Assembly: GCA_030432235.1 (NCBI GenBank) | Contig: JAUIHT010000010.1 | Coordinates: forward strand, 1 to 64,000 | Length of the DNA stretch: 64,000 nucleotides | Direction: 5' to 3' | Source: Verrucomicrobiia bacterium | GTDB lineage: Bacteria; Verrucomicrobiota; Verrucomicrobiia; Opitutales; Cerasicoccaceae | In this document: positions 4,697 to 26,085 of the stretch, one piece after another | How the letters are laid out: each line of letters starts with the position of its first letter | Position numbering within the stretch: the stretch's first letter is position 1 | The notes under the pieces: model-generated | What the model saw: only the letters and a program-made list of their open reading frames with translations | Databases searched by the model: none | What the model was told of the DNA's origin: nothing | Translations under genes and position numbers: made by a program

Positions 4697-4777
4697 AACG
4701 GTTTGAGAAGTATGCTCTCAAACCTTTTAATTGACACGCTTACTCGCTTTACAGACTTAATCAAAAAGTTAATAATT

Positions 4778-8687: not shown

Positions 8688-8716
8688 TAAATAATTGGAC
8701 AGTTCCAAAAAATCAA
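8688..8716 (-). promoter_or_regulatory. GH8 promoter with LacI-type operator in the spacer
   Basis: On the minus strand a -35 TTGATT (8711-8716) and a -10 TATTTA (8688-8693) are separated by 17 bases. The operator TTGGACAGTTCCAA (8695-8708, + strand) fills the spacer, so a bound repressor would block RNA polymerase. The 5' leader to the GH8 ATG is about 140 bases. Confidence 0.7.
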
Positions 8717-8750
8717 ACCGAATCGACTATTTTTATATAATTAGGGGGGA

Positions 8751-9824
8751 TTACTGACTCTGCCAGGCGTTGTACTGATGTTGCATCAGCTCATGATGAC
8801 GCGGGTGGCTGCCCTTGTATTGTTTGGGCGGTAATGTGATGACGCGGAAGTGCTCGAAGCCTACGGCGCGCAAATCTTCCTCGCCAAGCAGGCCCTTCCA
8901 CTGGCGTGGATCGTCGCTAGGCAAGTACTCACCGTAGAGAGTCACGCCTCCGGAGTAGTCGACCAGGACTGCCCCATAGACTTGCAGCGCTTTGGCGATG
9001 GCCTTTGCTGCAGGTGATAATGAAAACGAATCGAGATCCAGCCCGGGATCGAGCTGCAGCAGAGAGCCTTCCGGTACGCCTCCAGGCAACCAGCCATCCG
9101 TCCACATAGCCGGAAAAACAAACTCCTGCAGAGCGGGGCATTCACAGGCGAACGCCAGCTTGTGGGGGATCCATCCCGCTTCGATTTCCGCGTGTGTGAT
9201 GAGCCCGGCCAGGATGGGCACGCCGGAGGCGCGACAAGGACCGTAGAGATGCACGCTCTCGTCATTGTGCATTTCGGCAAAGTCGTTAGGGTCGAATACA
9301 CCATTGCCGTCGATGCGGTAGGCCACGGCGGAGTTCGTTGCCCAGTTTCCATCGTTGTCCACCTCGGCCTGCCACATGTCGTACGCGATGCCGGCATCAC
9401 GATCGATGACACAGAGATGGGCATCTCCCTGCCCATCCGTTTGCGCCTTGGGTGGTACCGGAATACCCGCGCTTACGGATGGGTGATGGCCGCGTGGATG
9501 GTCCGGGTGCAGGTAGGGGCGGCTGGCTTCGACAAATCCCTGTGCATGGTTGCAGCGTTCGATTTTTCTACGGACGATTTGCCTGAGGGTGTTGGCGTCT
9601 GCTTCGAAAACCGGAATGGTCCACTCGTGGAGATTAATGTGAAAGCCTTGGTTGCCAGACCACTCGGCTAGCAGTTTGACCAGGCGATCACTCTCGGTGT
9701 CGGCGGACGTATCGGCGGCAATCGGCTGGTTCCAGAAACTTTGCGGTGCAAAAGGTCGCTGAAGGGGCCGTTCCTCGATTTGGCTCTGTCCGAGCCCTTG
9801 CGGCATCTCTGTGTTTTGAATCAT
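8751..9824 (-). CDS. Uncharacterised 357-aa protein in glycan-degradation operon
   Basis: I do not recognise a characterised family. The sequence has no signal peptide or membrane segment. Distinct segments are PFAPQSFWNQPI near residue 25, VSAGIPVPPKAQ near 115, a DGQGDAHLCVIDRDAGIAYD stretch with DMWQAEVDNDGNW near 130-160, and a closing Gly/Tyr/Trp-rich region. A SFWN...IPVPP...WEFW-like layout occurs in uncharacterised actinobacterial proteins as far as I recall. It starts 8 bases after the GH5-like gene and is the last gene of the four-gene unit driven from 13938, so it likely serves the same sulfated-glycan pathway. Its His and Asp richness would allow an enzyme (glycosidase or lyase), but this is speculation. 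Confidence 0.75.
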   Translation of the reverse strand: MIQNTEMPQGLGQSQIEERPLQRPFAPQSFWNQPIAADTSADTESDRLVKLLAEWSGNQGFHINLHEWTIPVFEADANTLRQIVRRKIERCNHAQGFVEASRPYLHPDHPRGHHPSVSAGIPVPPKAQTDGQGDAHLCVIDRDAGIAYDMWQAEVDNDGNWATNSAVAYRIDGNGVFDPNDFAEMHNDESVHLYGPCRASGVPILAGLITHAEIEAGWIPHKLAFACECPALQEFVFPAMWTDGWLPGGVPEGSLLQLDPGLDLDSFSLSPAAKAIAKALQVYGAVLVDYSGGVTLYGEYLPSDDPRQWKGLLGEEDLRAVGFEHFRVITLPPKQYKGSHPRHHELMQHQYNAWQSQ

Positions 9825-9832
9825 GCTTGTTC

Positions 9833-10969
9833 TTAAATCGGTTCGATACGGGCGCTACGGATTTTCTGGGTCAGTCGCTGATGCCAGGCGACGTCACGCC
9901 ACATGCCATGGAACTGAGGTCCGCAAAAATTACTCGTGCAAATCATGGCCCAGCGACCTTGTTCGATGACGTATTCGACGGCGCGCTCGTTAAGTTCACG
10001 CACCCAGCCCCAGTCGAGCCCCGGCCAGTCCTTGTAATCGACGATAGACCAGCCTTCCGTGGTGCCGAGCAGGCGATGGGTGTCACGGCTCCACTGCGCG
10101 ACGGCGTCGAGCTTCGGCGTGAACTCGCTCCACCAGTACTCTGGATCGCTCCGATACAGGCCCTCGGCATGAGCGACGACATTCTTGTAACCGCTGTCGT
10201 CGAAGCGCTCGAAGTGGTAACCGACCCGTTCGTAAAAGTTCGTGTTTTGGCTCATCCAGCGGTGAACCTCGTAAAAGTCCAGAAAGGAGGCGTCCACGCC
10301 TTGGACATCCGTGGCGTCGAGAAAGGAGGTCAGTGAAAAAGTAAAGGGAATCTCCCCATAGCTGGCGCGCAAAAGGCGAATGCTCTCCTGCATCCAGGTG
10401 AGTGATTCTTCACTGCGCCAGTCTTCCTCGGGTGTACCTTTGGGAGTTGGAAAAAAGGGCGCCCAGACTGGCAGCGGCCACTCGTTGCAGAGATCCACAT
10501 AGCAAACGCTGTCGAGGAGGCCTGCCTCGCGTATGAGGCCAAGCGTCTTAGCCCAGATGTCTGCCAAGGCGGACGGACTGGCAATTTTCAGTCGCTGGCC
10601 GGTTTCGTCATTTTGAAACCAGGAAGAGAGGCCAACCTGGATTTTACGCTCACGGCACTTCTGCAGGAATTCCAGCAGGGCGGGCATGACACGTATCGTG
10701 ATGGGCGCGGGACTGCCCCAATCCTGTTGATCCCAAGGTGGCAGCACATTCCAGGCACGGTTCGCATCAGCAGCAACGAAGTGAGGGTAGCAGTCGATTC
10801 GAACGGCATTGTAGCCACGTTCGGCCAAGCCGTCGAGCGCCTCATCCCAGTCTTCATAGCCGGCGCCGGGCCAGCGCCTTTCCAGCCAGGAGAAATCCCA
10901 CATGGTAATGGCCAGAGGCTTGTGAAGGGATGCAAAAGCCCGGTTGTCTACTGGAGAAACGACACTCAT
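9833..10969 (-). CDS. GH5-like (clan A) cytoplasmic glycosidase
   Basis: This 378-residue protein is a cellulase-like TIM barrel. The likely acid/base Glu163 lies in VDLCNEWP and the likely nucleophile Glu305 in GTTEGW, with aromatic residues typical of sugar clefts (MWDFSW near 23). No signal peptide is present, so it should act on imported oligosaccharides. It lies between the sulfatase and the uncharacterised 357-aa gene in one transcription unit. The assignment to a numbered GH family is uncertain; it belongs to the loosely described cellulase-like group. Confidence 0.75.
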   Translation of the reverse strand: MSVVSPVDNRAFASLHKPLAITMWDFSWLERRWPGAGYEDWDEALDGLAERGYNAVRIDCYPHFVAADANRAWNVLPPWDQQDWGSPAPITIRVMPALLEFLQKCRERKIQVGLSSWFQNDETGQRLKIASPSALADIWAKTLGLIREAGLLDSVCYVDLCNEWPLPVWAPFFPTPKGTPEEDWRSEESLTWMQESIRLLRASYGEIPFTFSLTSFLDATDVQGVDASFLDFYEVHRWMSQNTNFYERVGYHFERFDDSGYKNVVAHAEGLYRSDPEYWWSEFTPKLDAVAQWSRDTHRLLGTTEGWSIVDYKDWPGLDWGWVRELNERAVEYVIEQGRWAMICTSNFCGPQFHGMWRDVAWHQRLTQKIRSARIEPI

Positions 10970-10992
10970 GGATACCTCTGAGATTAAGGACT

Positions 10993-12549
10993 CTACCAGC
11001 CTCCGCTATGAAAATACTCCAGGCCGTCGATGGCGGTTGCTGTGCGTTGGTTTGCCCGCTTACGGAATTCCTCGGAGAGCTGGAACGGATGCGGCTCCTC
11101 GGGGAAGGGTTGCCCGATACGCTTAAGGTGATTGCGCAGCAGGCTTTTCATTTCATCCAATACCTTCGCATAGCGGGGAAAGGAAGCGAGGTTGATTTGC
11201 TCCCATTCGTCGTGGTCGATGCGGTAGAGCTGATCCGGTTCCCAATAGTAGCGGTGATAGAACTCGGGCATCCACGGCGTCCATTGCTCTATCTGATTAA
11301 GGATGCGGCCTTCAGCGTCCGCTTTCATCGCTTCGATCTGATTTCTCTGATAACGAAATGCGATGTACTTGAATTCCTTGGTTTGGACGGAGCGTGCGAC
11401 GCCGACTTCATTGTACCAATAAGCGGGAGCTTGATAGGATTGTCCACATAGCGCGGCGGCATAGCTGCGTCCATCGAAGGCATTGCCGGGTTCGGTATTC
11501 AGATCCAGCAACTCAACGAGAGTTGGCAGGAAATCGATATTCTGAACGGTATGGGAGCAGACGCTTCCCGCAGGGATGTGCTCCGGCCAACGCACCAGAA
11601 AACCCGTGCGGGAGCCGCTGACATGGCAGGAGGACTTGCCGAAAACCGAATGGTCGCTCTGATAAACGATAAGGGTGTTATCGAGTTCGCCTTGGCGCTC
11701 GAGCTCGCGCCGCAAGATGCCCAGGCAGTCGTCCAGCCAGACGGTGCCGACGGCACGGTGGGTAGGCTCGATCCCGGCATTGTGGAGACGATCCAGAATC
11801 GATTGTCGAGAAGGGTGGCCCGTCTCAGGGACTTCATCCAACAATCCCCCCGGCGTAATACACGGGTCTTCTCTCACGATATTCTCACCGTGCTTGGGAC
11901 CGTGAATCACATTGGTCGCGACGGTCAGGAAAAATGGCTTATCCGTGTCGCGTTCGTCGCGCAGGAAACGCAACGCACCTTCTGTTTTCCACTCCAGATT
12001 ATGCGTGTCGAGGCGGACCCAGGGCTCCCAATCAATATTTCCCCAGGCAAGGCTTCCGGCGTAGTCCCAGCCATTGCGGTGAAGCTCGTCGATGGCTATT
12101 CGATAGTTGTCCTGGCGGATGCGATTGGCCTCAGCCTCGGGTGTGTCCGGCTCGATATGCCGCATGCCAAGCTCATCCGCGTGGCGGCCACAATGAAACT
12201 TGCCCACGTATCCGGTGGCGTAGCCGTTGCGACGAAAGAGGGTAGCCGCGCTTTCGTCTCCGGGACGAATCTCCGCATTGAAGCCGACCAAGGGGAATTC
12301 GTCATCGTCTTCAGGTTGCTCTGCCGCCGGGTTGCGACCACGACTGGGCAGGCGCCCGGTCAGGTAGGCATAGCGGCTGGGAGTACAGATAGGGGCGACC
12401 ACCTCATGCTTGGAAAACCGCATCCCTTCCCGTGCCAACCAATCGAAATTGGGCGTTGGATAGGGACCGCCGTAGGGGCCAAGGTACTCCGGGTCCGTGT
12501 CGTCGCTGATAAGCACCAGGACGTTCGGACGCTTGTTGCGGTCGGACAT
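10993..12549 (-). CDS. Type I (FGly) sulfatase
   Basis: This 518-residue arylsulfatase-type protein contains the formylglycine signature CTPSR at residues 55-59 (Cys55 is the residue oxidised to formylglycine) with LTGR after it. Asp16 and Asp17 in ISDDTD are the usual calcium ligands, and HGPKHGEN and YQSDHSVFG are later active-site segments. No signal peptide is visible, which points to desulfation inside the cell. It is the second gene of the operon controlled by the operator at 13914. The substrate is probably a sulfated sugar of the same polysaccharide; anaerobic or aerobic sulfatase maturation genes are not in the window. Confidence 0.9.
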   Translation of the reverse strand: MSDRNKRPNVLVLISDDTDPEYLGPYGGPYPTPNFDWLAREGMRFSKHEVVAPICTPSRYAYLTGRLPSRGRNPAAEQPEDDDEFPLVGFNAEIRPGDESAATLFRRNGYATGYVGKFHCGRHADELGMRHIEPDTPEAEANRIRQDNYRIAIDELHRNGWDYAGSLAWGNIDWEPWVRLDTHNLEWKTEGALRFLRDERDTDKPFFLTVATNVIHGPKHGENIVREDPCITPGGLLDEVPETGHPSRQSILDRLHNAGIEPTHRAVGTVWLDDCLGILRRELERQGELDNTLIVYQSDHSVFGKSSCHVSGSRTGFLVRWPEHIPAGSVCSHTVQNIDFLPTLVELLDLNTEPGNAFDGRSYAAALCGQSYQAPAYWYNEVGVARSVQTKEFKYIAFRYQRNQIEAMKADAEGRILNQIEQWTPWMPEFYHRYYWEPDQLYRIDHDEWEQINLASFPRYAKVLDEMKSLLRNHLKRIGQPFPEEPHPFQLSEEFRKRANQRTATAIDGLEYFHSGGW

Positions 12550-12575
12550 AGGTGAACCGCCTTCTGATTGAACCT

Positions 12576-13871
12576 TTAGGCGCGGCGCCGACGACGGTAA
12601 AGCGCCAGTGTGCCCACGAGTCCGGCAAGCGCCAGGGCAGTGGTTCGGGGTTCCGGTATGGCGGCCAGGTTGAAGTCAACGTTGGCACCATCGAAGGAAA
12701 AAGTACCGCTCCAGCCATCGTTTAGGAGAGTCCATCCGGCGACGCCGGGGTCGGAGTCCAAACCGGTGATGATGTTTTCATAGATGCCTGTGGTCGCGCC
12801 ATCGTCTAGAAAGAGGATGCCTTGATCCGCATCGAAAATGACTGAGCCCAAGCCTGCGAGAGCCAGCGTGTCACTGGTGCCGCTACCAAGAGCAAGGGAA
12901 ATGACTGAACCATCCGAGAAGGTGACGCCGCCGTCCGAAGTCAGGGTAACCACACCACCCGCAGTAGCCGTGCCGGACAAGGTTCCGTCTACCGTCAACG
13001 AGCCGGTACCCGTATTTAGGGAGTCATTGAAAACGATGGTCTTGCCGGAGTCGATATTGACGGAGAAATTACCGGAATGGGTGCCCCAGGTGGCTTCCGA
13101 AGAGCCGGTGCCGTTAAAGTTAAGGGTCGCAGTCAGCGTAGAACTGGGGTTGGAAAAATCCCCGCTGTTGTTCAAGCCGCCCCCCACGTTGATAACGGAG
13201 GTAAAACCCGTGTTGGTGGTGGTTCCAAATTGATAGGCGGCGCCGGACTGGACGGTGACGTTACCACCGATGTCGTGGGTGCCTGAGCTGGAAAAACCGG
13301 AGGCGCGGAGGTTGCCTTGGCTGACCATCAGGCCGCCCGTCAAGGTCAGTGAGGTGGCATCTGTTCCGGCAGCGGAAGAGTTATAATTAAGACTGCCGTA
13401 AGTGAGGTCGGAACGTATCGTCGTCAAACTGCCTCCGACGACAAACGTACTATTTGAGTCAATGGAGTTGAACTGCAAATTGCTGTAAAAGCTGCTGACT
13501 TCATAGGTGCCGCCGCTATCCATATTCAGGACAATGTTGTGGTTGCGACCGCTGGCGGTTATGGTGCCGCCGCTTTCCACGACGACTTGGGAGTTCGTGC
13601 CGGTCACCGCCCAGTTGCCCGTGAAGTTATTGAGATTTTGGCCGTCCTGGACGCGCAGGCGGATATTTTCCACGGTGGAGAAATTTCCAGGTGAGGCCCC
13701 GGTGCCATCTGTATTGACGCCCCAGTTACTCTGGACGTTGCCCGGCGTACCGACTTCCCAGTAGTAGCTGGTTTGCCCGGAGGCGGGTAGGGCCAGGGCG
13801 CTAAAAATCAGGGATACGGACAAGATTTGTCCACGAAAAGAAGCTAGAGTGAAGGGTAGTTTGTTTTTCAT
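12576..13871 (-). CDS. PEP-CTERM-anchored secreted beta-strand-repeat protein
   Basis: A signal peptide covers about residues 1-32 (ends SGQ). The middle is Gly/Ser/Thr/Asn-rich with short repeated beta-strand units of the kind seen in autotransporter-associated passenger regions. The C-terminus has the PEP-CTERM signal: IPEPRTT, a hydrophobic helix and YRRRRRA. Such proteins are processed by exosortase and end up on or outside the outer membrane. It is the first gene of the unit that also encodes the sulfatase, the GH5-like enzyme and the 357-aa protein. A polysaccharide-adhesion role is suggested by context only. Confidence 0.85.
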   Translation of the reverse strand: MKNKLPFTLASFRGQILSVSLIFSALALPASGQTSYYWEVGTPGNVQSNWGVNTDGTGASPGNFSTVENIRLRVQDGQNLNNFTGNWAVTGTNSQVVVESGGTITASGRNHNIVLNMDSGGTYEVSSFYSNLQFNSIDSNSTFVVGGSLTTIRSDLTYGSLNYNSSAAGTDATSLTLTGGLMVSQGNLRASGFSSSGTHDIGGNVTVQSGAAYQFGTTTNTGFTSVINVGGGLNNSGDFSNPSSTLTATLNFNGTGSSEATWGTHSGNFSVNIDSGKTIVFNDSLNTGTGSLTVDGTLSGTATAGGVVTLTSDGGVTFSDGSVISLALGSGTSDTLALAGLGSVIFDADQGILFLDDGATTGIYENIITGLDSDPGVAGWTLLNDGWSGTFSFDGANVDFNLAAIPEPRTTALALAGLVGTLALYRRRRRA

Positions 13872-13909
13872 TTAGAGAAGGTGAGGGGTGTTGGAGGATT
13901 GTTCAAGCC

Positions 13910-13938
13910 CATATTGGACAGTTCCAAAAGAAAATCAA
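13910..13938 (-). promoter_or_regulatory. Operon promoter with LacI-type operator in the spacer
   Basis: On the minus strand, -35 TTGATT (13933-13938) and -10 AATATG (13910-13915) are 17 bases apart. The operator TTGGACAGTTCCAA occupies 13914-13927, the same layout as at the GH8 promoter. It precedes the PEP-CTERM, sulfatase, GH5-like and 357-aa genes. Confidence 0.7.
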
Positions 13939-13959
13939 CCAATTTCTTGGGATTTCTAT

Positions 13960-15030
13960 TCAGAGGGGCGGGGAAAGCGTGACATCGCTGTCCATTTTCA
14001 GCGGGACGGCGATGGGGGAGAGGAACTTGGACGGCTTTTCTATTTTCTTAAGCAACATGTCGGCCGATCGCCTTCCCAGTTCCTCCAGATTGAGTTGGAT
14101 GGTGGAGATGGAGATGCCTGTGTTGTTGCGGTTGTAGCGTCCAAAAGTGACCAAAGACAGGTCTTCGGGGACGCGTAACCCACTGCTGAGCGCTGCGACG
14201 AGAATGGGTGCGGCGACCTCCATTTCATAACACAACAAAGCGGTGGGCCGGTTGCGCGCCTGGATGATTTTCCGTGCAATTTCCTGGCGATGGTCGACCC
14301 GAATCTCTGCAGGAGACTCCATTGGCGGGACGCGCACACGCTGCGGCTTCAGCCCGGCTTCCCGCATCGCCTTTTCATAGCCACCAAAGCGATCCGTTTC
14401 GCTGTAATGCTCGAAATGATGAAAATGCAGGTATCCAATGTGCTTGTGGCCTAGCGCGATAATTCTCTGCGTGGCATCGTATGCGGCATTAAAGTCGTCT
14501 GGGTGCACACAGTCGTGCTCCAGCTTGGAGTTCATCCAAACCGTGGGGATTTGATGCCTTTCAATCAGCTCCAGCATCTTTTTGGGCAGGAAGGTCGCGT
14601 AGTGGATGAGCAGACCGTCGCAGGACCATTCTTCGAGCACTTTGGGGACATAATTGGCGGAGGTCAGCCGACGGTTATCGAGCCAGGTAAGATTCAGGCG
14701 ATAACCTTTTTTTTCCAAGGCGTCCTCAGCGCCATAGACAAGTTCGGCGGGCAGAAAGTAGGGGCTGATTTTTCCCACGATCATGGCGATCGTATTAAAG
14801 CGTCCGGTGCGCATGGTGCGGGCAATCGAATTGACGCGGTAACCCATGTCAGCGCAGGCCTTGAGGATGCGCTCCCGTGTCGCGGGTGCCAATGGGCAGT
14901 TTTCCTCGGTCGTGCTGACAGCGAGGGCGACCGTGGATTTGGAAACATTCAATCGCTGGGCGATTTCGCGTATAGAGGGGCCGCCCGGTTTTCGCGTGCT
15001 CTTTGTTACTTTCGATTGACTGCTCTTCAT
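13960..15030 (-). CDS. LacI-family transcriptional regulator of the glycan locus
   Basis: The 356-residue protein starts with a short basic tail, then the LacI helix-turn-helix (residues about 18-65, SIREIAQRLNVSKSTVALAV) and hinge helix (NSIARTMRTGR). A periplasmic-binding-like sugar-sensing domain follows. It sits between the sulfatase operon and the GH2 gene and has a copy of the palindrome over its own promoter (15065-15078), so it is probably autoregulated. It is the obvious candidate to bind all six palindromes in 8.7-26 kb. The inducer is likely an oligosaccharide or monosaccharide from the target glycan (inference). Confidence 0.93.
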   Translation of the reverse strand: MKSSQSKVTKSTRKPGGPSIREIAQRLNVSKSTVALAVSTTEENCPLAPATRERILKACADMGYRVNSIARTMRTGRFNTIAMIVGKISPYFLPAELVYGAEDALEKKGYRLNLTWLDNRRLTSANYVPKVLEEWSCDGLLIHYATFLPKKMLELIERHQIPTVWMNSKLEHDCVHPDDFNAAYDATQRIIALGHKHIGYLHFHHFEHYSETDRFGGYEKAMREAGLKPQRVRVPPMESPAEIRVDHRQEIARKIIQARNRPTALLCYEMEVAAPILVAALSSGLRVPEDLSLVTFGRYNRNNTGISISTIQLNLEELGRRSADMLLKKIEKPSKFLSPIAVPLKMDSDVTLSPPL

Positions 15031-15064
15031 GCCGTATGCCCGCTACAAATCCAGTGCAGCAAGG

Positions 15065-15102
15065 TTGGACAGTTCTAACCCATGTTGGGATGGGGTTGTC
15101 AA
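15065..15102 (-). promoter_or_regulatory. Autoregulated lacI-type promoter and operator
   Basis: A consensus -35 TTGACA (minus strand, 15097-15102) is followed 17 bases later by GTTAGA (15074-15079) as -10. The operator, TTGGACAGTTCTAA at 15065-15078, overlaps the -10 and start region and has one mismatch to the other sites. The -35 abuts the TGA stop of the GH2 gene. Confidence 0.7.
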
Positions 15103-18100
15103 TCAGTAAGATAGCGTCCTGCTGCTCAAGGAAGCCGCTTCCAGCGTGCCGAGGTCATTAAGGCTGACCTCGATACCGCCATTTTGGTAATCCTCAAGGC
15201 GCCACTTCAGCCTGTCCAGGTGGGGTAATGGTTCACTATCGGACAGCGATTCTATCAGGTAGACCTCGAGGGTTCCCTTGCGCAGGAGAGCAAGCCCCAG
15301 GAAGCCTATGAAACGGGGGTGCCGACTTTGGTACTCCCAGGGAAAGAAAGGGCCGTTTACTTCGAAACAGTGGTTGACCTCAAGGCCCAGCCATCCGCCA
15401 TGCAGGTCAGCTGTGCTATCAAGCTTAAGCCAGGGGCCATGCATCCGGCCTTCGCAGAGGGTGGAGGTCTTGGTCGATCCAAATACGGAGCGGCCATCAA
15501 TAGCCAGATGATTGGCCGGTGTCGTTTCTTCGGTGAGGATCAAGCCCTCTCTGATTTCGCTCAGCAGGGCAGGGTCCTTGAGCGTGCCGCAGTTGTGGAA
15601 TACCTCGATACGGTCAAAGGCCGATGCCTTGGGGAAATCATTCGTTGGCAGATGCGCGCTAAGGTGCCGTATTCCGTTTAGCAGAATCCGGAGAGCCGCG
15701 GGGTCATGGTTCAGCCTATCTCCAAGAGACAGGGTTGAGAGCAGGGCGCGTTGAGTGCCGTTTTGGACTTCGGCCAACAGGGAGTACTCGCGACGGGACC
15801 CGGTCATCAACGAACGGAATCGCTGCGTGGCTTGTGGGCGTTGGCCCGCTTCGCGATTTTCGATGGTGCTATCCATGTCCATGCCGGCGCCGACCCCATG
15901 AACCTGCTTCATCAATGGACTCACTTCCATGCCAGGCTGGAGAAGCACCGTGTTGCAGACAGATTGTCCGGAGGCCATGGGTCGCCAGTAGGGATCGTTG
16001 ATGCCTTCCCGAAGACTGTGTTCGTCCGCTTCCCAGGTCCCCAGATTGGGTAAAAGTAACTCCGCGAGCTTTGTATCCCGGCCCGTGATGGGAGCGAACT
16101 TCCAGGAATAGGGCAGGGCTTCGTCAAAGCAGAGCGAACGCAAACCGAAGCTGGCACTGCCCGTATCGCTTATTTCCACGATGAAAACAGACACTTGAGC
16201 TTTGGCGGCACGGCTTTCCCATGCAGGCAGTTTTTTCAAACTTTCGGCATCGGTGAGCAACACCGAGCCGCTGGCGTTTTCCCATTCAAAATGGTCCGGC
16301 TGATGCGTGCGTACGGTAACCCCAGCTCCGCGCAAAGCTTCCACGTAAGGCTGTGTTTTACTGCTCGCGAGCAGATGCACCTGCATGAGCGGGGGCGCGC
16401 ACGAGGGGGCGTTGATACTGTAGAGCGTTTCCTCGGTAGCATCCAGGACCGAGCCACTATCGTCCACCCAGCGTAACCTGAGGGGGAGGGTGGCCACCTT
16501 TAGATGTTCGGCAGCGAGCTCTACGGTGACGCGGCCGGTGCTGGCGGGCGGTACGGTAAGAGGAGTCTCTGCCTGGATGCGGCCATCAGGATTCTCCAGC
16601 AAGATTCTACCTTGTGCGAGCGTATCGCTGTCATTGCGTGCGGCCAGTCGAAGGCTTGCGGGTTGGGAGCCATCGCAGATTAAATTTCGCCCAGGCTGAT
16701 CCAGGCAGACGCAATAGCGGCCCAACAAATGACGCCATTGCCTTGCCCGGCGTTTGTTGGCCTTGGGGGAGGTGGCGGATTGAGGACTGGGCGGGTGGAC
16801 ACGCAGGCCTTCACGGATCTCCAATTTGTGCTCTGGGTGGTAGTGGCACTCAAAGCCGCTCCAGTCCTGGATCCACTGGGCTGAAAAGTTGTAGGGGAGC
16901 ACTCCCGATGCTCCGGCCAGGCGCATTGGCTCGATGCGCTCCTTCCACAGCGACCATTGTTTTTCCAGATAGTCCTCATTGGAGAAATACTCCTCGCCAC
17001 TGGTCAGGCGTTGCTCGGCGCCGCGGCTGCCAATCCAGAATTCACCGAAGACGAGAGGCTTATCACGCAGCCAATGCTCCAGCAGAGGGCTGTAATTTTC
17101 TTCGTGATGTATATGGTAGATTTCCGCGTCATCCCCCAGGGCGCCGGCGCCACCATCGAAGGTTAAAGGGCGGCTGTCATCCCAGCGCCGAATACTGGCG
17201 GCCATGCCGGAAAACAGATGTGCTTTTTCCCGGTCGGGGGCGATGCGGACCATCTCGTTTTCCACGCCCCAGATGACCACGCTGGGATGATTCCAATCGC
17301 GGGTTATCCATGCCTCCGTTTCGCGTTCAAAAGCGGCCAAAAAGGTGGGCAAGCATGTCAGGTAACGGCCATAGCCGCGCGACCAGACCGAGGATTGGTT
17401 TTCCAGTAGTAACCCCACCTCGTCCGCGGCCTGGAAGATCGCCGGATGGCCAATGCTGCCGTGAATGCGCAGGCAATTGATATCCAGGTGCTGTTTGAGA
17501 AAACGGAAATAGCAACGGCAATGCTCCACCTCCCAGAACTGTGGCGTTTCCAGCGCGAAGGGATTGGCAAACTGCAATCCGCGGTTTTGCAACAGATCGC
17601 TTTCACCACGAAGAATGATCCGCTCACCGTTCAGATAAAAATCGCTGCCATGCACCGCGAACTGGCGGTAACCGAAGCGCTCTGTAAGTGCATCGGCGCA
17701 GTTGCCATTTTCCATCCGTGCTAATTCCAGGTTGTAAAGGATCGGAGAATCCGGAGTCCATCGTGCCAGCGGTTCGCCCGAAATGGAGGCCTCCAGAAAA
17801 CTCCCGCACTGTTTCAGGTCTTCGGCGTTGAGAATGCCGCTTGCAACCGGCGTGTCATCGGTCGCTGATCGCAGAGTCCAGGTCCAGTGTGCCTTACTGG
17901 CTGTCTCCATTTCGCTCAGCCACCACCGAAGTTGTACCACGCCTTCGAGCGGCTTTGGCGTGATCTTCATGCGCTTGATGAAACGAGTGGGGCGTAGCTC
18001 GATACGGCAGCTTTGCCAGATACCCACGCGATAGGGTGGGGTGTCCAGGCCGGTTTGCTTACGCCATTTTTCTAGTGGTGTTCCGTGCAGGGTGGCACTG

Positions 18101-18528: not shown

Positions 18529-18629
18529 GAATCAAGTGAATGTTGTCCCGCTCAATTTGCTATCTTTGCGGGCTCTTCGCTGATAACTGAATCCATTCGG
18601 CAGTGATGAAGAAAGGAAGTCAACATAAA

Positions 18630-18643
18630 TTGGACCTGTCCAA
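18630..18643. promoter_or_regulatory. LacI-type operator upstream of GH2 gene
   Basis: TTGGACCTGTCCAA is the most symmetric of the six copies. With its AATT flanks (18628-18645) it forms an 18-bp palindrome broken only at the two central bases. It lies in the 307-base divergent gap between the GH2 gene (minus) and the pseudopilin-like gene (plus). No -35/-10 pair for the GH2 gene could be fixed with confidence. Confidence 0.7.
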
Positions 18644-18761
18644 TTATTCGAGAATAAGGTGTTTGGCTGGTTACCTTGACCTTATTTTGCTGCTGAGTAG
18701 ATTACTGGCTAGTGCTTCATGCAGTTTGGCCGAAATATTGGGCGCAATTTCTATTTCACGC

Positions 18762-18804
18762 TTGAGTTTATGCAAATATCGCGCACATTATTGGACAGTT
18801 CCAA
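18762..18804 (+). promoter_or_regulatory. Promoter and LacI-type operator of the pseudopilin-like gene
   Basis: A weak -35 TTGAGT (18762-18767) and -10 CATTAT (18786-18791) are 18 bases apart. The operator TTGGACAGTTCCAA (18791-18804) immediately follows the -10 and would cover the transcription start. The ATG is 31 bases downstream at 18836. Confidence 0.6.
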
Positions 18805-18835
18805 TTTAAAGTGACATCTTTTTCCTGATACCCCA

Positions 18836-21800
18836 ATGACAGTCCGTCCCCAAAAGCCTCAGGGCTTTGCCCTTGTTGTGGCAGTTGTGCTGCTGGGCTT
18901 TGTCATGCTCATACTGGTTTCGCTATCCGCTTTAGTGCAGACGGAATTGCACTTGAGCAGTAGTCGGCTGAGCATGAGCGAAGCACGTAGCAATGCCTTG
19001 CTGGGGCTTGAAGTGGCTTTGGGGCGCTTGCAGGCCAGTTCGGGGCCTGACCAGCGGGCAACGGCTCGCGCGGACATCCTCGGTGATACTACTGAAGAAA
19101 ATAGATATTGGACAGGCGTTTGGAAGACAATCGACCCAGATAATCCACGTCAGGAGCTGGAAGCGGTTCGCTCCTGGAGCACACAGCCGGATGAGGTGGA
19201 GTGGCTGATTAGCTCGGAAAAAAGTCCGAATCCCAATGCGAGCCTGGCCGATTCAAATCCAAGCTCAGGTGTGGTTTCATTGGTAAATTATATCGATGCG
19301 GAAACCGATGAAGAGGCCGAAGTGCAGGCCGGCAAGATACCTTTGCCTCTAAACGGTTCCCAAGGCGGCAATTTTGCCTGGTGGGTTGGCGATGAGGGCA
19401 TCAAGGCGAAATTCAACACCGCGGGCGGCCAGAGCCCTGCCGCTGGCGCTGGGGAGGAGTGGCTTCAGGCTCAGTCCGCTTTGCTTAACCCTGAGCGCTT
19501 CGGCATGGCCGCCATGGATGGCTTGAGCGATCTATTTGATTATGCTTCGTTGAGCGCTGGTGAGCGGGCACAAGTATACAGCGATGAAGACATCGGCTTC
19601 CTGGCAGACGGGACTGTGACGAGCGAAAGTATCGATGCGTTTCGAAAGGAATCTTTTCACGATATTACGTTTTCATCCTTTGGCGTACTCTCCAACCAGC
19701 GTTTTGGAGGATTGAAAAAGGATCTTAGTCGGGGCCTTGATGACCAATTTCCTGAAACCCTGGCCGGGCGTCCGATGTGGTGGTTGCCGGAGCCGGGAAC
19801 GAGCCATGTCGTCAAAGGAGAATTATGGGATGTTGTCTACGATTACGCCAATTTATACCGAGACTATCCGGCCTGGCAGTTCTCCGGTAGTGTCAATGAC
19901 TCCGGCTACACATACAGTTACAATCCTCATGGTCGTAATGGCCCTCAAGGCTTGAGCGACCCACGAGATGCCTCCGCCTCGGTACCTATGCGTTTCTTTG
20001 GGCCGGAGTCATCGACCAGCCAGGGCTCCTTCAACCGGCAGGGAAAAAACATGGGAGCGAACTCTTACTATATCGCTCCTGTTATCAGCCAATATCAGGA
20101 GAACCATTGGGATGTGAGTGAATCTGGCACCAAGCAAGGGCGGCCAATCTGGAATGCACTCAACCCGGTAGTCCTGGCCTGCCTTTGGCGTGTTGGAATC
20201 GGGTCGGTAGATTTGACGACCTACAGTCAAAGCGAGGCGTTCACACGCGATGGTTACAGCCCGGATGGGACATTTGCCAATTTGCTCCAATATGACGAAG
20301 TGGCAGGCAAACCCAAGTACGACTTCAATGGCAGTAGCTATACGGGCCATCCGCTGGACTTACCCCGGGACTGGCAAGGGCGGCCCTCCACTGGTGAGCA
20401 TGCCGTACAGGGTACGCCCAAGGAATATTACCGCCTGCATTTCGTGCTTCAGCCCATTATTGTGTTGTGGAACCCGTATAACGTTCCGTTGAAAATCAAC
20501 GATCTCGAAATTACGCCGAAGTTCGAGCCTTGGGTCAGCATTGACTTTGACCCCAAGGACGGAACCGGCTCTGGAGTTAAGCCGGTAAAACTTCACAAAT
20601 ATATGTACACCGGGTCGACAAAGTTTCGTGTACTCGATGACTATCCGCACTCTGCGGTCGGAGCTTCCAATAACCCCTCCGAAGCCGATGATCGCTTTTT
20701 GCTCATTGATGACGCCCTCATGGCCGGAGGCCAGTACAAAGCAGGGATACAAATCAACAACGAGATATTGCAGCCGGGCGAGATACTTGTCTTTTCATCG
20801 GATAAGAACCGTAAGCTTGCAGTGACTACCGGCATCCCGGTCAAGGCGGCACGTGGAGAGGGGCCCAATACGGATGCTGTCGCATTACGGGAGTTTCCGA
20901 TTAAGCACGACTTTCCTCAAGGCACCCACATAAACTCCATTCAGCTCTTCTACGAACCGAGTAACGTTCCAAACAGAAACCAGGTGGATGGCCGACTCAA
21001 CACCATGAGTTTGAGTGTCCAGTACCAGAATCAGGACTTCAGTCCGGGGACGCAAACAGAAGGCTACTTATTTCAGTTCGACCAGTTTGGACCGGATGCT
21101 GTTGAAGGGGAGGATTGGCTAGAAAAGCATGAGTTTGAAGTCGATTTGAATATCGAGGATATACAAGTGCCATACACCAACTTAGCCCTCGATATGAACG
21201 ACTACTTCGACGTGCACTGGTTTGCAGTTATTGGAGCGCAGACCAAGCGCATCAATGAGAATCTACGCGGTGCGCCACTCTTCAGTCAGTTCAACGTAAC
21301 CCGTGTAGCTGACCGGCCCAATCCTTCCAACACAGAAATGAGCGGCCTGCTTTGGAAGGCAAAGTTCTACACCGACCCGGAGTTTCAGGATGCCATTGAG
21401 AGCGACGAGATTCCATTCTGGAATGGCGACGATCAGATTTGGAATGACGTCGACCATGTTGTGCTGAAGGAGCTGCCAAGACAGCCGCTGTCTTCCATCG
21501 GCCAGTTCATGCACGCAGGTTTGTCGGTTAACGATTGGGACCCGCTTTATGCGGTGGGTAGCTCCTATGCGCATCCTCTCATCGCACCGAATGGGTTGAT
21601 AAATAAATTTAATCAACAAGCCGGCACGAACGGCATTGGCACAACCGGTAATATCGCGGTTGACTTGGCGTACCTCTCCAACGAGCGCCTCTTCGATGAC
21701 TTTTTCTTTTCCACCGTGCCTCCCCAGAATACCGATCCGGGGGCACCGGGATACAGTAGCACCTACGAACCCGAAGAGGTGCCGCCTTTTGAGGCTTTTT

Positions 21801-22792
21801 CGACTGAGGATTTGGAGCTGAGCAAGCCTCTGCCAAACCCTCGCATGCGTTACCTTCTGCCGGAGGACGACACGGGGTATACGGTTTTGCTCGAAGATAT
21901 GCGTGACTATGATTCTGCCGCGTCGGTGCTGATGGTTGACGGGGCTTTCAATGTGAATTCAACCTCGGTGGAAGCCTGGGAGGCGGTATTGTCGAGCCTG
22001 CGTAATCAGATGATACCCTCTGCTTCCGGCGGACAAAACACGGCTGGTGGCAGCGCGGACAATCCGTTTCTACGTGTGAGTGCTCCTTTAGGTGGCAATG
22101 ATAACTCCACGGAGGATCTTTATACGGGTTTCGCTTCCCTCAGTGACGATGAGATTCGTGAGTTGGCGGAAGCCGTTGTTACTGAAGTGAAGACCCGCGG
22201 CCCCTTCCTCAGTATGGCGGATTTCGTTAACCGTCGTTTGGAGGACACTGAGTTAGGCTACAAAGGCGCTTTGCAGGCAGCTTTGGACAAGTCCGTCAAT
22301 GCCGACAGTGACCGGTTCGGAAGTCCGGTGACGTTGAGCAATAGTGGCGATGACAGCAATCTGTGGCTGAACGACAAGCAGGGCAATCGGTTGCTGCGCC
22401 CGGAGGTGTTGGTTTCTCGGCAAGGTGCGGGATTGCCGCAATGGATACTTCAGAATGATATTCTGCGCTCTTTTGCATCCATAATGCAGGCGCGCTCTGA
22501 TACTTTTATTATCCGCTCCTACGGCGATGTGACAGATATAACCGGTAAGCCGATCGCGCAGGCTTGGTGCGAGGCGGTGGTTCAGCGTATGCCTGATTAC
22601 GTGGATTCACTCGCCAATCCAGATCCGACGGTTCGCCCCTGGCTGTTGAGCGTCAATGGCAACGGCGAACGGCTCGACGAGATCGTACGCAACACCGGTT
22701 CCGGCTCCGGGGCATTGAGTGAAACTAACTTCGATTTTGGTCGTCGCTACCGCATCGTGTCCTTCCGCTGGTTGAATGAAGGGGAAATCTAG
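18836..22792 (+). CDS. Giant prepilin-like protein, Verru_Chthon cassette protein A / GspK-like
   Basis: The 1318-residue protein begins with a type IV prepilin leader: PQG at 8-10, a predicted cleavage before Phe11, then a hydrophobic helix (FALVVAVVLLGFVMLILVSL). Like the minor pseudopilin GspK it lacks the Glu at mature position 5. The long extracytoplasmic part ends with a GPFLSMADFVNRR segment recalling helix-hairpin-helix parts of GspK. Length and start match what I know of Verru_Chthon cassette protein A, but cassette proteins B, C and D are not adjacent. It is transcribed from an operator-bearing promoter, with the next gene 20 bases on. The function is unproven; it may tip or prime a pseudopilus. 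Confidence 0.75.
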   Translation: MTVRPQKPQGFALVVAVVLLGFVMLILVSLSALVQTELHLSSSRLSMSEARSNALLGLEVALGRLQASSGPDQRATARADILGDTTEENRYWTGVWKTIDPDNPRQELEAVRSWSTQPDEVEWLISSEKSPNPNASLADSNPSSGVVSLVNYIDAETDEEAEVQAGKIPLPLNGSQGGNFAWWVGDEGIKAKFNTAGGQSPAAGAGEEWLQAQSALLNPERFGMAAMDGLSDLFDYASLSAGERAQVYSDEDIGFLADGTVTSESIDAFRKESFHDITFSSFGVLSNQRFGGLKKDLSRGLDDQFPETLAGRPMWWLPEPGTSHVVKGELWDVVYDYANLYRDYPAWQFSGSVNDSGYTYSYNPHGRNGPQGLSDPRDASASVPMRFFGPESSTSQGSFNRQGKNMGANSYYIAPVISQYQENHWDVSESGTKQGRPIWNALNPVVLACLWRVGIGSVDLTTYSQSEAFTRDGYSPDGTFANLLQYDEVAGKPKYDFNGSSYTGHPLDLPRDWQGRPSTGEHAVQGTPKEYYRLHFVLQPIIVLWNPYNVPLKINDLEITPKFEPWVSIDFDPKDGTGSGVKPVKLHKYMYTGSTKFRVLDDYPHSAVGASNNPSEADDRFLLIDDALMAGGQYKAGIQINNEILQPGEILVFSSDKNRKLAVTTGIPVKAARGEGPNTDAVALREFPIKHDFPQGTHINSIQLFYEPSNVPNRNQVDGRLNTMSLSVQYQNQDFSPGTQTEGYLFQFDQFGPDAVEGEDWLEKHEFEVDLNIEDIQVPYTNLALDMNDYFDVHWFAVIGAQTKRINENLRGAPLFSQFNVTRVADRPNPSNTEMSGLLWKAKFYTDPEFQDAIESDEIPFWNGDDQIWNDVDHVVLKELPRQPLSSIGQFMHAGLSVNDWDPLYAVGSSYAHPLIAPNGLINKFNQQAGTNGIGTTGNIAVDLAYLSNERLFDDFFFSTVPPQNTDPGAPGYSSTYEPEEVPPFEAFSTEDLELSKPLPNPRMRYLLPEDDTGYTVLLEDMRDYDSAASVLMVDGAFNVNSTSVEAWEAVLSSLRNQMIPSASGGQNTAGGSADNPFLRVSAPLGGNDNSTEDLYTGFASLSDDEIRELAEAVVTEVKTRGPFLSMADFVNRRLEDTELGYKGALQAALDKSVNADSDRFGSPVTLSNSGDDSNLWLNDKQGNRLLRPEVLVSRQGAGLPQWILQNDILRSFASIMQARSDTFIIRSYGDVTDITGKPIAQAWCEAVVQRMPDYVDSLANPDPTVRPWLLSVNGNGERLDEIVRNTGSGSGALSETNFDFGRRYRIVSFRWLNEGEI

Positions 22793-22812
22793 CCTGTCTG
22801 AGTTTTGAAATT

Positions 22813-23511
22813 ATGGTGTATTTAAGCTCTCCCCAAAAGCTGATCGTCTTGGGCATCACCCTGTCAATGTGCCTGACATTAAATGCAGCGACGTCCTTTC
22901 GTGTGCTTTACTGGTCGGGTGACCTCAACGATGTTTTTTTTCAGGACTCTGGTGGGAAAATGCAGGAGCTCGATGCGGGAAAACGCAGTTTCTCCGATAC
23001 CTATATTTATCCAGGTGAGCCCCCGCTAAGATTTTACAGTAAGTCCGTTGCCCCTGAAACCGGAGAAGAGCTTTTCCTTCCGGTGGCAGAGTTAAACCCG
23101 ATCCCGAATTTTCAGACGATTGGTTTGCTCTTTTTTGATAAACCCGGTGGCGGATATCGGCTCTACTCGCTGGACATCGGTGCAGAGCAATTGCCTGGTG
23201 GCTCTTTTTGTTTTGTTAATATGACCCAACGAAAACTCGCCTTTCAGGTCGGGGAGACGACTTTCTATTTAAACCCTGGCCAGAACCATCATTTCGAAAC
23301 CAGCTCTGATGAAAGGCCGGAGGATGTAGATGAAGATGCCACCTCGGGCGGTAAAAGCATTATCGTACGCGCGGCGGAAGATCAGTCCGACGGTTGGAGC
23401 CCTGTGCTGAATGTCCGTTGGATGCTGAGTCGCACGGCACGCACTTTTGTTTTTGTCTACAACCGTGATGACGGTGAGATAGCCATGCGTCGATTCAGTG
23501 ACCGGCTCTGA
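22813..23511 (+). CDS. Uncharacterised exported protein paired with the pseudopilin-like gene
   Basis: This 232-residue protein has an N-terminal hydrophobic segment (LIVLGITLSMCLTL) ending in NAA, probably a signal peptide. The remainder is predicted beta-rich with no family I recognise (landmarks: RVLYWSGD near 32, GGGYRLYSLD near 115, PVLNVRWMLSRTARTFVFVY near the end). It lies 20 bases after the giant pseudopilin-like gene, probably in the same transcript, and converges on the GH10 gene with 4 bases between stops. I infer a partner of the pseudopilin-like protein. Confidence 0.75.
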   Translation: MVYLSSPQKLIVLGITLSMCLTLNAATSFRVLYWSGDLNDVFFQDSGGKMQELDAGKRSFSDTYIYPGEPPLRFYSKSVAPETGEELFLPVAELNPIPNFQTIGLLFFDKPGGGYRLYSLDIGAEQLPGGSFCFVNMTQRKLAFQVGETTFYLNPGQNHHFETSSDERPEDVDEDATSGGKSIIVRAAEDQSDGWSPVLNVRWMLSRTARTFVFVYNRDDGEIAMRRFSDRL

Positions 23512-23515
23512 GGCT

Positions 23516-25849
23516 CTATAAAGGTAGAATCTCGGTATTGTTCTCGCCGTCGTCGCTAAAGTCCGCCTCGAATTCAACCTGCTTGTTGGTGCCATCGACG
23601 GTAAACTCGTAGTCTCCGAAAAAACCGCGAAATTCTATTTCGCCCTCGGCATTGGTGGTGGTATCGACCTTGGTGGAAAAGGTTTCCTGGACGAGCTTGC
23701 GGAAGCTTTCCGCCAATGGCTTGGGAGACCAGTCCTTGCGGAACATGGCTGCATTGGGTTCCCACATGTAGCCTTCCCAGAAACCCCAGGTCTGCACCAG
23801 ATTCGTGGCCGGGTGGCTGAAGGCAATCGTTACAAAATCGCTCACGTAGTCGGCCTGGGCTTGCTCGTCCGGTATATTCACCGTCAGTTCCGTCAGTTGC
23901 ACCTTGAGGCCTTTTTGAGCAAAGGTGTCGATGATCTCATAGACGTGCGGGATGGGCGTGAGCGAACCCTGGAAGTGCGATTGCAGGCCCATTCCGTCGA
24001 TGGGCGTTCCCTCCTTTTGAAATTTATCAATCAGGTCCTCATAGTAGGCAACCTTCGGATTGCCGCTGCCCGGGCGTGTCATAATATCGAAGTCATTGAC
24101 GTATAGATCCGCATGTGGTGCTGCGTTGCGTGCGGCCTGCATCCAGGTACTCATGGCGTCGTCACCCAGGATTTGCATGAAGTCCTGATTGGTGTAGGGC
24201 TCGTTGATCACATCCCAGTCCTGAATGCGGCCGTCATACTTTGCCCCAACGTCCTGGATGCGCTCGAGAATAGCAGCCTGCAGGGCTTCAGGATCATCTT
24301 TCAAAGCGATAATATCAGGATTGTTATAGCGCCAGCCGGGCCAGACAAGCGTATGACCGCGAACGTGCCACTGGTTGCCTTCCATCCAGGACAGACCGTC
24401 TTCGATCTTGGTATCAATGTCGGGTATGTTGGCTTGCTTCCATTTCATCGCGTTCTCCAGCGAACCGGCATTAAACATTTCGGCGGCGACTTCGCCGTAC
24501 TTGGGCTCATAGCGCCAGGTGCCGGGTAGCAGTACGGGGGTGCCCAGGGTGGAGCCGAAACCGTAAGCATGGCGGATGAGTTTACCGCGAACCTTAACGC
24601 CACTGAGGGGGCGGCCTTGTGCGTCGGTCAGCTTGAGGACAAAGTCACCTTTGCGGTGCTTTTCGATGCGTTCTGCGGCCTCCTTCCGCCAAGGGGCTTC
24701 CGGAGCTGAGCCCAGGTAGTCCATGAAAGAAGCAGGGAGCGAATCAGGGGTGACTGCCTGACCGGAGTTTATCAGCGCCACGCCGCCGATATCGATAGAC
24801 TGTGGTCCGTAGCCTCCGCGAAAGAGAAGCTGTGCTCCCCCGGCGGCTACGGCAAAATCGGCTTTGAAGGGGATCACATAATGATGCCACTCCGTGTCGT
24901 CCGCACTCACACCCCAACTGATAAGCTTTTCGTACTTACCACCTATTTTTTCGATTGAGAACTGTGTGGTTCCGTAGCCGGTCTGCACGTTGGGCTTTGC
25001 CACGCGGTAGGAAAAGACAGCCAGCAGCGTATCACCCGCTTCGACGGACTGAACCAGCGGTTGCTTGATTTGAAAGGAATAGAATTTGGGTGAGTCCTTT
25101 TCCGTCGTCATACAGACGGCTTCGTTGAAGGCCTGACCCTCTACCGGAATCATTTCCATTTTCCCGTATTCAGCGCCTTGCACTTTAAAGCCTTTCAGTC
25201 CCTCGATAATGGAGTGATAAGGGCCGGCTGGCAGGCTGCCATTGTCCGGGAGCGGATAGCTTTTCAGGTTGATAACCGGCAGGTCCTCATCCACCCAGGA
25301 AAGTTCTGTAAAGGCCTCTGGAACATCGTCGAGGCTATCGCGATCGGGAAAACTCACCTGGACATCGGTAATCTCTATAGTGCCCGTCCCAAAGCCCAGG
25401 CTAATGACTACCTGGCCGTCACCGGAATCGAGGATTTCATTGATGGTTCCTCTGACGGTCACCTTGCTCCACTCGGACGGGATATCTTCGCGCTTGTAAA
25501 TGAGCGGGGAGAAGGGCGGGCGGGCCAGTTGCAGCGCTAGGGCGACGCGGACATTGTCCGGGCTACGCATCATGGCTGTGATCTCAATCTTTTCCGCGGG
25601 ATAGATCTTCTGTGGTATCTTCTGCCTAAGTTGAACGAACCAGGGCTTTTCCGGTGCTTCCTTGATCTTTACCTGTAGGGCAGTTTGGGCGGGCCCGTTG
25701 TCCAACGTGACCGTGCTGACCTCGGTGCCGTCCATACGGCTTGACCATCCGTTGAGGCCATCGGCGAAGTCGGCATTTTGGAGTGTTACGGTGGCTGCAT
25801 TCGCAGCCATGGATGCGGTCAAAAGAAAAAGGGCAATGAAACGATTCAT
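23516..25849 (-). CDS. Secreted GH10 endo-xylanase with two N-terminal CBM-like domains
   Basis: A signal peptide ends near residue 19 (ANA). Residues about 20-170 and 190-365 are beta-sandwich modules resembling CBM4/9 (the first starts with NADFADGLNGW). The GH10 barrel covers about 385-740: GHTLVWP near 498, WDVINEPYTN with acid/base Glu550, and QLTEL with nucleophile Glu654. The last 40 residues look like a short C-terminal beta extension. GH10 enzymes cleave beta-1,4-xylan, which makes xylan or a xylan-like glycan the best guess for the locus. An operator lies 127 bases upstream (25976). Confidence 0.93.
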   Translation of the reverse strand: MNRFIALFLLTASMAANAATVTLQNADFADGLNGWSSRMDGTEVSTVTLDNGPAQTALQVKIKEAPEKPWFVQLRQKIPQKIYPAEKIEITAMMRSPDNVRVALALQLARPPFSPLIYKREDIPSEWSKVTVRGTINEILDSGDGQVVISLGFGTGTIEITDVQVSFPDRDSLDDVPEAFTELSWVDEDLPVINLKSYPLPDNGSLPAGPYHSIIEGLKGFKVQGAEYGKMEMIPVEGQAFNEAVCMTTEKDSPKFYSFQIKQPLVQSVEAGDTLLAVFSYRVAKPNVQTGYGTTQFSIEKIGGKYEKLISWGVSADDTEWHHYVIPFKADFAVAAGGAQLLFRGGYGPQSIDIGGVALINSGQAVTPDSLPASFMDYLGSAPEAPWRKEAAERIEKHRKGDFVLKLTDAQGRPLSGVKVRGKLIRHAYGFGSTLGTPVLLPGTWRYEPKYGEVAAEMFNAGSLENAMKWKQANIPDIDTKIEDGLSWMEGNQWHVRGHTLVWPGWRYNNPDIIALKDDPEALQAAILERIQDVGAKYDGRIQDWDVINEPYTNQDFMQILGDDAMSTWMQAARNAAPHADLYVNDFDIMTRPGSGNPKVAYYEDLIDKFQKEGTPIDGMGLQSHFQGSLTPIPHVYEIIDTFAQKGLKVQLTELTVNIPDEQAQADYVSDFVTIAFSHPATNLVQTWGFWEGYMWEPNAAMFRKDWSPKPLAESFRKLVQETFSTKVDTTTNAEGEIEFRGFFGDYEFTVDGTNKQVEFEADFSDDGENNTEILPL

Positions 25850-25975
25850 AAACAGGGGGGATTTTCGTTTACAGGCACTTCCGGCGGAAGCGCAAGATTG
25901 ACTCGTATAATAGGACCGAATGAGGACCTTGTTTTATAGAGGAATGGGCATCGGGAAAGATTCTGTCAACGAAAT

Positions 25976-25989
25976 TTGGACAGTTCCAA
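25976..25989. promoter_or_regulatory. LacI-type operator upstream of GH10 gene
   Basis: TTGGACAGTTCCAA is identical to the copies at 8695, 13914 and 18791. On the minus strand a TTGACA lies six bases further toward the GH10 gene (25964-25969), a possible -35, but no well-spaced -10 was found. The site is between the porin terminator and the GH10 start, so it serves GH10. Confidence 0.65.
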
Positions 25990-26023
25990 AAATTGGGCTT
26001 TGGGGGTTCATATACAAAGTAAA

Positions 26024-26053
26024 AGCCCCCTCGCAATCTGGTGCGAGGGGGCT
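26024..26053 (-). terminator. Terminator of the porin gene
   Basis: A perfect 12-bp GC-rich stem (26024-26035 with 26042-26053) has a 6-base loop. On the minus strand it is followed by a T-rich tract, 33 bases past the porin stop. Confidence 0.85.
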
Positions 26054-26085
26054 CCATTGTGGCAGGGACTGTATGGTGAGAGAGT

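Follow-up and report, generated by a model that had tools for sequence, protein, structure and literature searches.

A conserved 14-bp operator defines a putative LacI-type regulon over a polysaccharide-degradation locus with a giant pseudopilin-like protein in a Verrucomicrobiia bacterium

LacI-family transcription factors frequently act as local regulators of sugar utilization, and their regulons have been reconstructed on a large scale by comparative genomics. Among 1303 LacI-family regulators surveyed by Ravcheev et al. (2014; RegPrecise, PMC4052901), 1251 were assigned operators that are even palindromes; 1173 of these 1251 carry a central CG pair, 49 carry another pair, and 29 have a degenerate centre. 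Sites of the family are usually located 30-140 bp from the start codon (PMC4052901). Pseudopilins have separately been linked to polysaccharide use in the Verrucomicrobiota; in Verruconatronum alginivorum, passages of the report on this organism (PMC13274419) describe a pseudopilin that is over-expressed on alginate together with polysaccharide-degrading enzymes, as well as 67 paralogs. Here we analyse a 64,000-nt stretch of DNA (hereafter the window) from a Verrucomicrobiia bacterium (Opitutales; Cerasicoccaceae; GCA_030432235.1, contig JAUIHT010000010.1, positions 1-64,000, forward strand), in which a gene for a LacI-family regulator (here lacI) lies within a locus of ten genes in six transcription units, i.e., a GH8 glycoside hydrolase gene, a four-gene operon headed by a PEP-CTERM protein gene, lacI itself, a GH2 gene, a giant pseudopilin-like gene with its companion, and a GH10 gene (Table 1). 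Like the local LacI sugar regulons in RegPrecise, this locus combines a regulator with a helix-turn-helix (HTH) and a periplasmic-binding-protein-like domain, apparent autoregulation, even palindromic operators, and targets for polysaccharide breakdown that adjoin the regulator gene; it differs from them in the centre of its operator, which is CAGT instead of CG, and in that a PEP-CTERM protein and a giant pseudopilin are among its targets. While the control scheme is thus of a known kind, linking these particular genes by it is new, and the literature searched yielded no such regulon from the Verrucomicrobiota.

An initial sequence-only reading of the window had proposed six operator sites, and all six are present, one before each transcription unit and 31-150 bp from the respective start codon, in line with the distances usual for the family (PMC4052901). 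Each is a 14-bp even inverted repeat of the form TTGGA-N4-TCCAA. The shared sequence put forward in that reading, TTGGAC-NN-(G/T)TCCAA, holds for five sites and fails by one mismatch at the sixth; the five match the 14-mer used for our searches, TTGGACNNKTCCAA, exactly, four of them (8695, 13914, 18791, and 25976) being identical (TTGGACAGTTCCAA) and that at 18630 reading TTGGACCTGTCCAA, while the site before lacI (15065) reads TTGGACAGTTCTAA. Genome-wide counts were obtained by pattern searches rather than by a weight-matrix scan. Exact matches were confined to the locus, with none in the remainder of the 5.72-Mb genome, and one-mismatch matches elsewhere were scattered and lacked the centre shared by the sites; the even scatter over the genome that had been named as the outcome speaking against a regulon did not occur. 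Within the window, the only other one-mismatch match lies at 56950 on the minus strand (TTGGACTCTTCCAC), and exact sites are lacking before the genes for the AraC regulator and the OprD porin as well as before the operon for the enolase-type protein (MR_MLE), as had been reported for the operon and the porin gene. With up to two mismatches, the window holds 20 matches versus 9.1 expected (standard deviation 3.2), a number reached in none of 100 shuffles. A blind search for intergenic palindromes present in at least three copies also recovered the motif with all six locus copies, and the same search did not yield six copies in any of 20 other LacI or pseudopilin regions of the genome. The upstream regions of the GH2 and pseudopilin genes (18612-18647 and 18787-18822) additionally share an inverted 36-nt stretch with 81% similarity that extends past the operator, as if a control region had been duplicated.

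The sites are conserved in two related genomes, one from another genus of the same family (G007) and one from another family of the same order (G030); the genome that contains the window is designated G000. In G007, five exact or near-exact sites and the lacI variant TTAGAACTGTCCAA precede the genes for GH10, the acetyl xylan esterase AXE1, the pseudopilin, LacI, the PEP-CTERM protein, and a GH8-sulfatase unit. In G030, five sites are distributed over two loci, with two sites between the pseudopilin gene and a GH2-lacI operon and one before a sulfatase-AXE1 unit in the first locus, and, on another contig, one between sulfatase and GH10 genes and one before a PEP-CTERM-GH8 unit. GH10, GH8, the PEP-CTERM protein, LacI, the pseudopilin, and the companion are orthologous in all three genomes (39-73% identity), and GH2 in two. 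The loci have been rearranged among the three genomes, while the operator stays with its genes, and in pairwise as well as three-way alignments of the upstream regions it forms the main or sole conserved block. A single consensus, TTGGACAGTTCCAA, emerges from the 17 sites of the three genera; 9 of its 14 positions do not vary, and the flanks are weakly rich in A/T. LacI is the sole regulator common to the three loci; in two genomes its gene has a site of its own, and in G030 it shares with GH2 an operon that is preceded by a site. Regulator, operator, and targets are thus conserved together in G007 and G030. Intergenic tandem repeats of approximately 159 and 101 bp are located beside the G030 sister loci (L056:151-1263 and L059:16711-17121).

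Operator and regulator also coincide in their distribution. A LacI ortholog (E < 1e-100) is present in three of 373 genomes from the order, and these three contain 4, 4, and 3 exact copies of the 14-mer; seven other genomes have a single exact copy each, and none has two. The chance of hitting the same three of 373 genomes is about 1e-7 (1 in 8.6 million triples). Because the motif is exclusive to the locus genome-wide, is conserved before orthologous genes despite their reordering, and matches the distribution of the LacI ortholog, the proposal of a putative local LacI-type regulon over this locus is strongly supported on three independent counts. For a group of Verrucomicrobiota in which the literature searched holds no such operator, it assigns to a polysaccharide locus a precise, conserved operator and a candidate regulator, and, through shared control in three genera, it would tie the giant pseudopilin, its companion, the PEP-CTERM protein, and a 357-aa protein to xylan-type breakdown.

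The predicted regulator has the domains expected for this role. Its residues 19-67 match the LacI-type HTH model PF00356 with 26.0 bits, slightly below the cut-off of 27, and its C-terminal part matches the periplasmic-binding-protein-like effector domain (PF13377, 88.3 bits; PF00532, 72.1 bits); full-length NCBIfam matches to the PurR, RbsR, CytR, and CcpA models start at residue 19 and remain under the equivalog cut-offs. The closest LacI-family proteins of solved structure are PurR and CcpA (PDB 1vpw and 1zvv; E about 1e-24), which resemble the window protein over its full length, including the DNA-binding domain, yet have another recognition helix and another operator. The recognition helix of the window protein is SKSTVALAV, with a Leu at a position where LacI-family helices usually have Arg or His. 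Next to the orthologs in G007 and G030, the best relatives within the order share only 31-33% identity. The motif was absent within 1.5 kb of paralogous LacI genes (31-37% identity; other recognition helices, e.g., SVSTVSHVL) and of LacI relatives outside the order (31-38% identity), and a search of named genomes for related loci returned merely two distant LacI relatives (27-29%). G000 encodes 63 PF13377 proteins in total; its 398-kb contig C11 is rich in LacI-type genes and accounts for about 17 of these 63.

In the best explanation of these data, which is very probable, the LacI protein uses all six 14-mers as its operators and would repress the six units until a xylan-derived sugar binds. 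We infer binding by LacI, repression rather than activation, and the identity of the inducer. In the proposed mechanism, a LacI dimer would occupy each TTGGACAGTTCCAA-type site in the absence of inducer and would hold the six promoters (GH8, PEP-CTERM/sulfatase operon, lacI, GH2, pseudopilin-companion, and GH10) low; a product of polysaccharide breakdown, most likely a xylo-oligosaccharide, would then bind the periplasmic-binding-protein-like domain, leading to release of LacI from the DNA. A xylan fragment is suggested as inducer because of the GH10 and GH8 content of the locus and because the operator is shared by an AXE1 gene in the sister loci.

Repression fits the placement of several sites. 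Upstream of lacI, G000 and G007 share an identical block, CTTACTGATTGACA-N18-TTAGAACTGTCCAA, whose spacer has diverged, and the G-to-A change that distinguishes this site from the others makes it more similar to a -10 element; the operator therefore lies over a presumed -10 behind a conserved TTGACA, which fits auto-repression. Part of the conservation of the lacI -35 may be inherited coding sequence, because the CTTACTGA that precedes TTGACA in G000 forms the final codons of the GH2 gene. Sites before the pseudopilin, PEP-CTERM, and AXE1 genes end 30-42 bp before the start codon and hence are likely to lie in or after the promoter, as would suit a repressor.

Several observations weigh against this interpretation. 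A strict sigma-70 scan found no promoter that overlaps any of the sites, leaving the claim of the sequence-only reading that at least three of them lie in a -35/-10 spacer or over a transcription start without backing; weaker hexamers judged by eye were excluded as evidence, except for the lacI -35 kept in two genera, and lacI is the only gene with comparative support for its promoter. In addition, a conserved TTGACW just downstream of the GH10 operator would also suit an activator, none of the 17 sites has the central CG that is typical of, though not defining for, LacI-family operators, and since the LacI ortholog co-occurs with the whole gene cassette, the distribution by itself cannot separate regulator from cassette. 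LacI might bind the sites and yet mainly activate, or repress its own gene and activate the enzyme genes, from positions just upstream of a -35; activation at GH10 in particular is conceivable because of the TTGACW that follows the operator there. TTGAC starts 0-7 bp past the operator at GH10 in three genomes and at GH2 in two, and occurs within 15 bp downstream at 5 of 17 sites, although this is a post hoc count over orthologous sites that are not independent. A convincing -10 at 16-18 bp after TTGACW was not found, however, the sites at lacI, pseudopilin, PEP-CTERM, and AXE1 are in a repressor position, and a LacI-type dimer, which spans more than the 14-bp core, could cover such a -35 too; we thus regard activation as the main mode of action as unlikely, with a real if small chance of being correct.

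The atypical centre and the shared distribution bear on a different question, namely which protein binds the 14-mer. With AG as its central pair, the CAGT centre lacks symmetry and hardly varies among the sites, and, as most surveyed even palindromes have a central CG (PMC4052901), this operator belongs to a minority type, though not one that is unheard of. Together with the large number of PF13377 proteins in the genome, it would be compatible with a regulator that is encoded elsewhere while the local LacI uses another operator. For such an outside regulator, one would have to assume co-evolution with the cassette in precisely those 3 of 373 genomes, though, and in all three genomes lacI bears a site or shares an operon with one; moreover, the blind search found no second repeated intergenic palindrome in the locus that could serve LacI instead. 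We consider this scenario improbable and the local LacI protein highly likely to be the binder of the sites. An origin of the sites as a dispersed repeat or mobile-element remnant, which near-identity of the copies (four being exactly alike) might bring to mind, is scarcely credible and was rejected, as the flanks are unrelated and identity ends at the 14 bp, all copies lie upstream of gene starts, and the same word is kept in the genera of G007 and G030, although the upstream regions have diverged apart from it.

Table 1. Genes and putative control elements of the locus (window coordinates)
Feature	Position	Strand	Remarks
GH8 glycoside hydrolase, 755 aa	6277..8544	-	PF01270, E 2.5e-34
Operator before GH8	8695..8708	-	TTGGAACTGTCCAA in gene sense; 150 bp from start codon
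Protein without family, 357 aa, last in PEP-CTERM operon	8751..9824	-	No Pfam/NCBIfam match; 9-bp gap to neighbour
Cellulase-like sugar-binding protein, 378 aa	9833..10969	-	PF12876, E 3.1e-148
Sulfatase, 518 aa	10993..12549	-	PF00884, E 1.6e-30; CTPSR formylglycine-type motif in sequence
PEP-CTERM surface/exported protein, 431 aa, first in operon	12576..13871	-	Weak PF07589 match; orthologs 57% (G007), 50% (G030)
Operator before PEP-CTERM/sulfatase operon	13914..13927	-	42 bp from start codon; kept before orthologous gene in G007 and G030
LacI-family regulator, 356 aa	13960..15030	-	PF13377 88.3 bits, PF00356 26.0 bits; orthologs 72% (G007), 54% (G030)
Operator before lacI	15065..15078	-	TTAGAACTGTCCAA in gene sense, one change; 34 bp from start codon; over presumed -10
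Presumed -35 of lacI (TTGACA)	15097..15102	-	18 bp upstream of operator
GH2 glycoside hydrolase, 1141 aa	15103..18528	-	PF02836/PF02837; ortholog 43% in G030
Operator before GH2	18630..18643	-	TTGGACAGGTCCAA in gene sense; 101 bp from start codon; weaker copy before G030 GH2
Operator before giant pseudopilin gene	18791..18804	+	31 bp from start codon; kept in G007 (30 bp) and G030
Giant pseudopilin-like protein, 1318 aa	18836..22792	+	Pilin-type N-terminal helix; orthologs 63%, 54%
Pseudopilin companion, 232 aa	22813..23511	+	Orthologs 50%, 39%
GH10 xylanase-type hydrolase, 777 aa	23516..25849	-	PF00331, E 1.1e-45; orthologs 61% in G007 and in G030
Operator before GH10	25976..25989	-	126 bp from start codon; kept in G007 and G030, TTGACW 6-7 bp downstream

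The four-gene operon encodes, in this order, the PEP-CTERM protein, the sulfatase, the cellulase-like protein, and the 357-aa protein, with gaps of 9-27 bp; the presence of sulfatases may indicate that the polysaccharide is sulfated or mixed. Genes for GH39, SDR, MR_MLE, and AraC proteins flank the locus on one side and an OprD gene on the other, all without a site, with a strong hairpin terminator at 26022-26055 between OprD and the GH10 site. By Pfam, none of the ten genes encodes a transporter or a catabolic enzyme; with no co-regulated transporter or intracellular sugar catabolism gene behind a site, the locus does not qualify as a complete glycan-utilization locus, and its earlier description as a complete degradation locus has to be narrowed accordingly. 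The AraC regulator (4703-5644) was considered as a binder of the sites and rejected, as no site precedes its gene and it has no ortholog in the sister loci.

The giant pseudopilin belongs to a family with 35 members in G000 (about 1050-1380 aa; loci L098-L137) and 27 and 23 copies in two related genomes; most of the 35 genes are directly followed by a homolog of the companion (220-310 aa), often with a 4-bp overlap. Two further G000 loci encode a LacI protein, a pseudopilin, a companion, and a PEP-CTERM-like protein. In the first (C37:33283-41289), the palindrome TTCKNACTGTAGAA occurs in four copies within 8 kb (L105:3284, 4817, 9238, and 11277) and nowhere else in the genome; it shares its ACTG centre with the window motif. 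In the other (C37:1619218-1625455), a repeated palindrome of TTGCAYAAAAKTGCAA type (L100:7220, 7263, 8428, and 13442) was found, with TGCAYAAAAKTGCA repeated before lacI, a 159-aa gene, and the PEP-CTERM-like gene, and few similar sites elsewhere on the contig. Copy counts inside these two loci arise by construction, because the patterns were derived there, whereas absence elsewhere does not. Pseudopilin genes also tend to lie near LacI genes: in genome G001, 6 of 27 do so within 5 kb versus 1.8 expected (p 0.006), and in G000, where some contig sizes were estimated, 19 of 35 do so within 10 kb versus 11.4 expected (p 0.0002) and 9 within 5 kb versus 6.5 expected (p 0.16). It is possible, although we advance this tentatively because the excess is moderate and uneven by distance, that many glycan loci of these Verrucomicrobiota follow a general scheme, each with its own giant pseudopilin and translationally coupled companion, often a PEP-CTERM-type surface protein, a LacI-type regulator, and a locus-specific operator. 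If so, the pseudopilin pair would represent a substrate-specific surface or secretion part with a role comparable to that of SusC/SusD of the Bacteroidota, and, if the 35 pseudopilin-companion modules obey the same logic, adjoining operators could assign substrates to a large family that has no known function.

The pseudopilins of V. alginivorum resemble this family in being verrucomicrobial, in having many paralogs, and in their link to polysaccharide degradation, and the induction of a pseudopilin by alginate would fit, by analogy, proteins of this sort taking part in polysaccharide use. As described in the passages of PMC13274419 drawn on here, which do not propose an operator or regulator, they are of the pulG-like type II secretion kind, whereas the window protein, with 1318 aa and a dedicated companion, is of another kind. 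Verru_Chthon cassette protein A (TIGR02600) is similar in its length of about 1300 aa and its pilin-like N-terminal helix, with a weak match over the first approximately 60 residues (E 0.021 for the window protein and 4e-4 for an ortholog). By contrast, scores against this model are only 12.7-18.3 bits, well short of its curated cut-off of 332.3 bits, the window protein itself reaching 12.7 bits over residues 10-68, which places it outside TIGR02600, and its partner is a 232-aa protein without a family. A structure model of this companion built from three sequences is of poor quality (predicted local distance difference test, pLDDT, 58) and all-beta.

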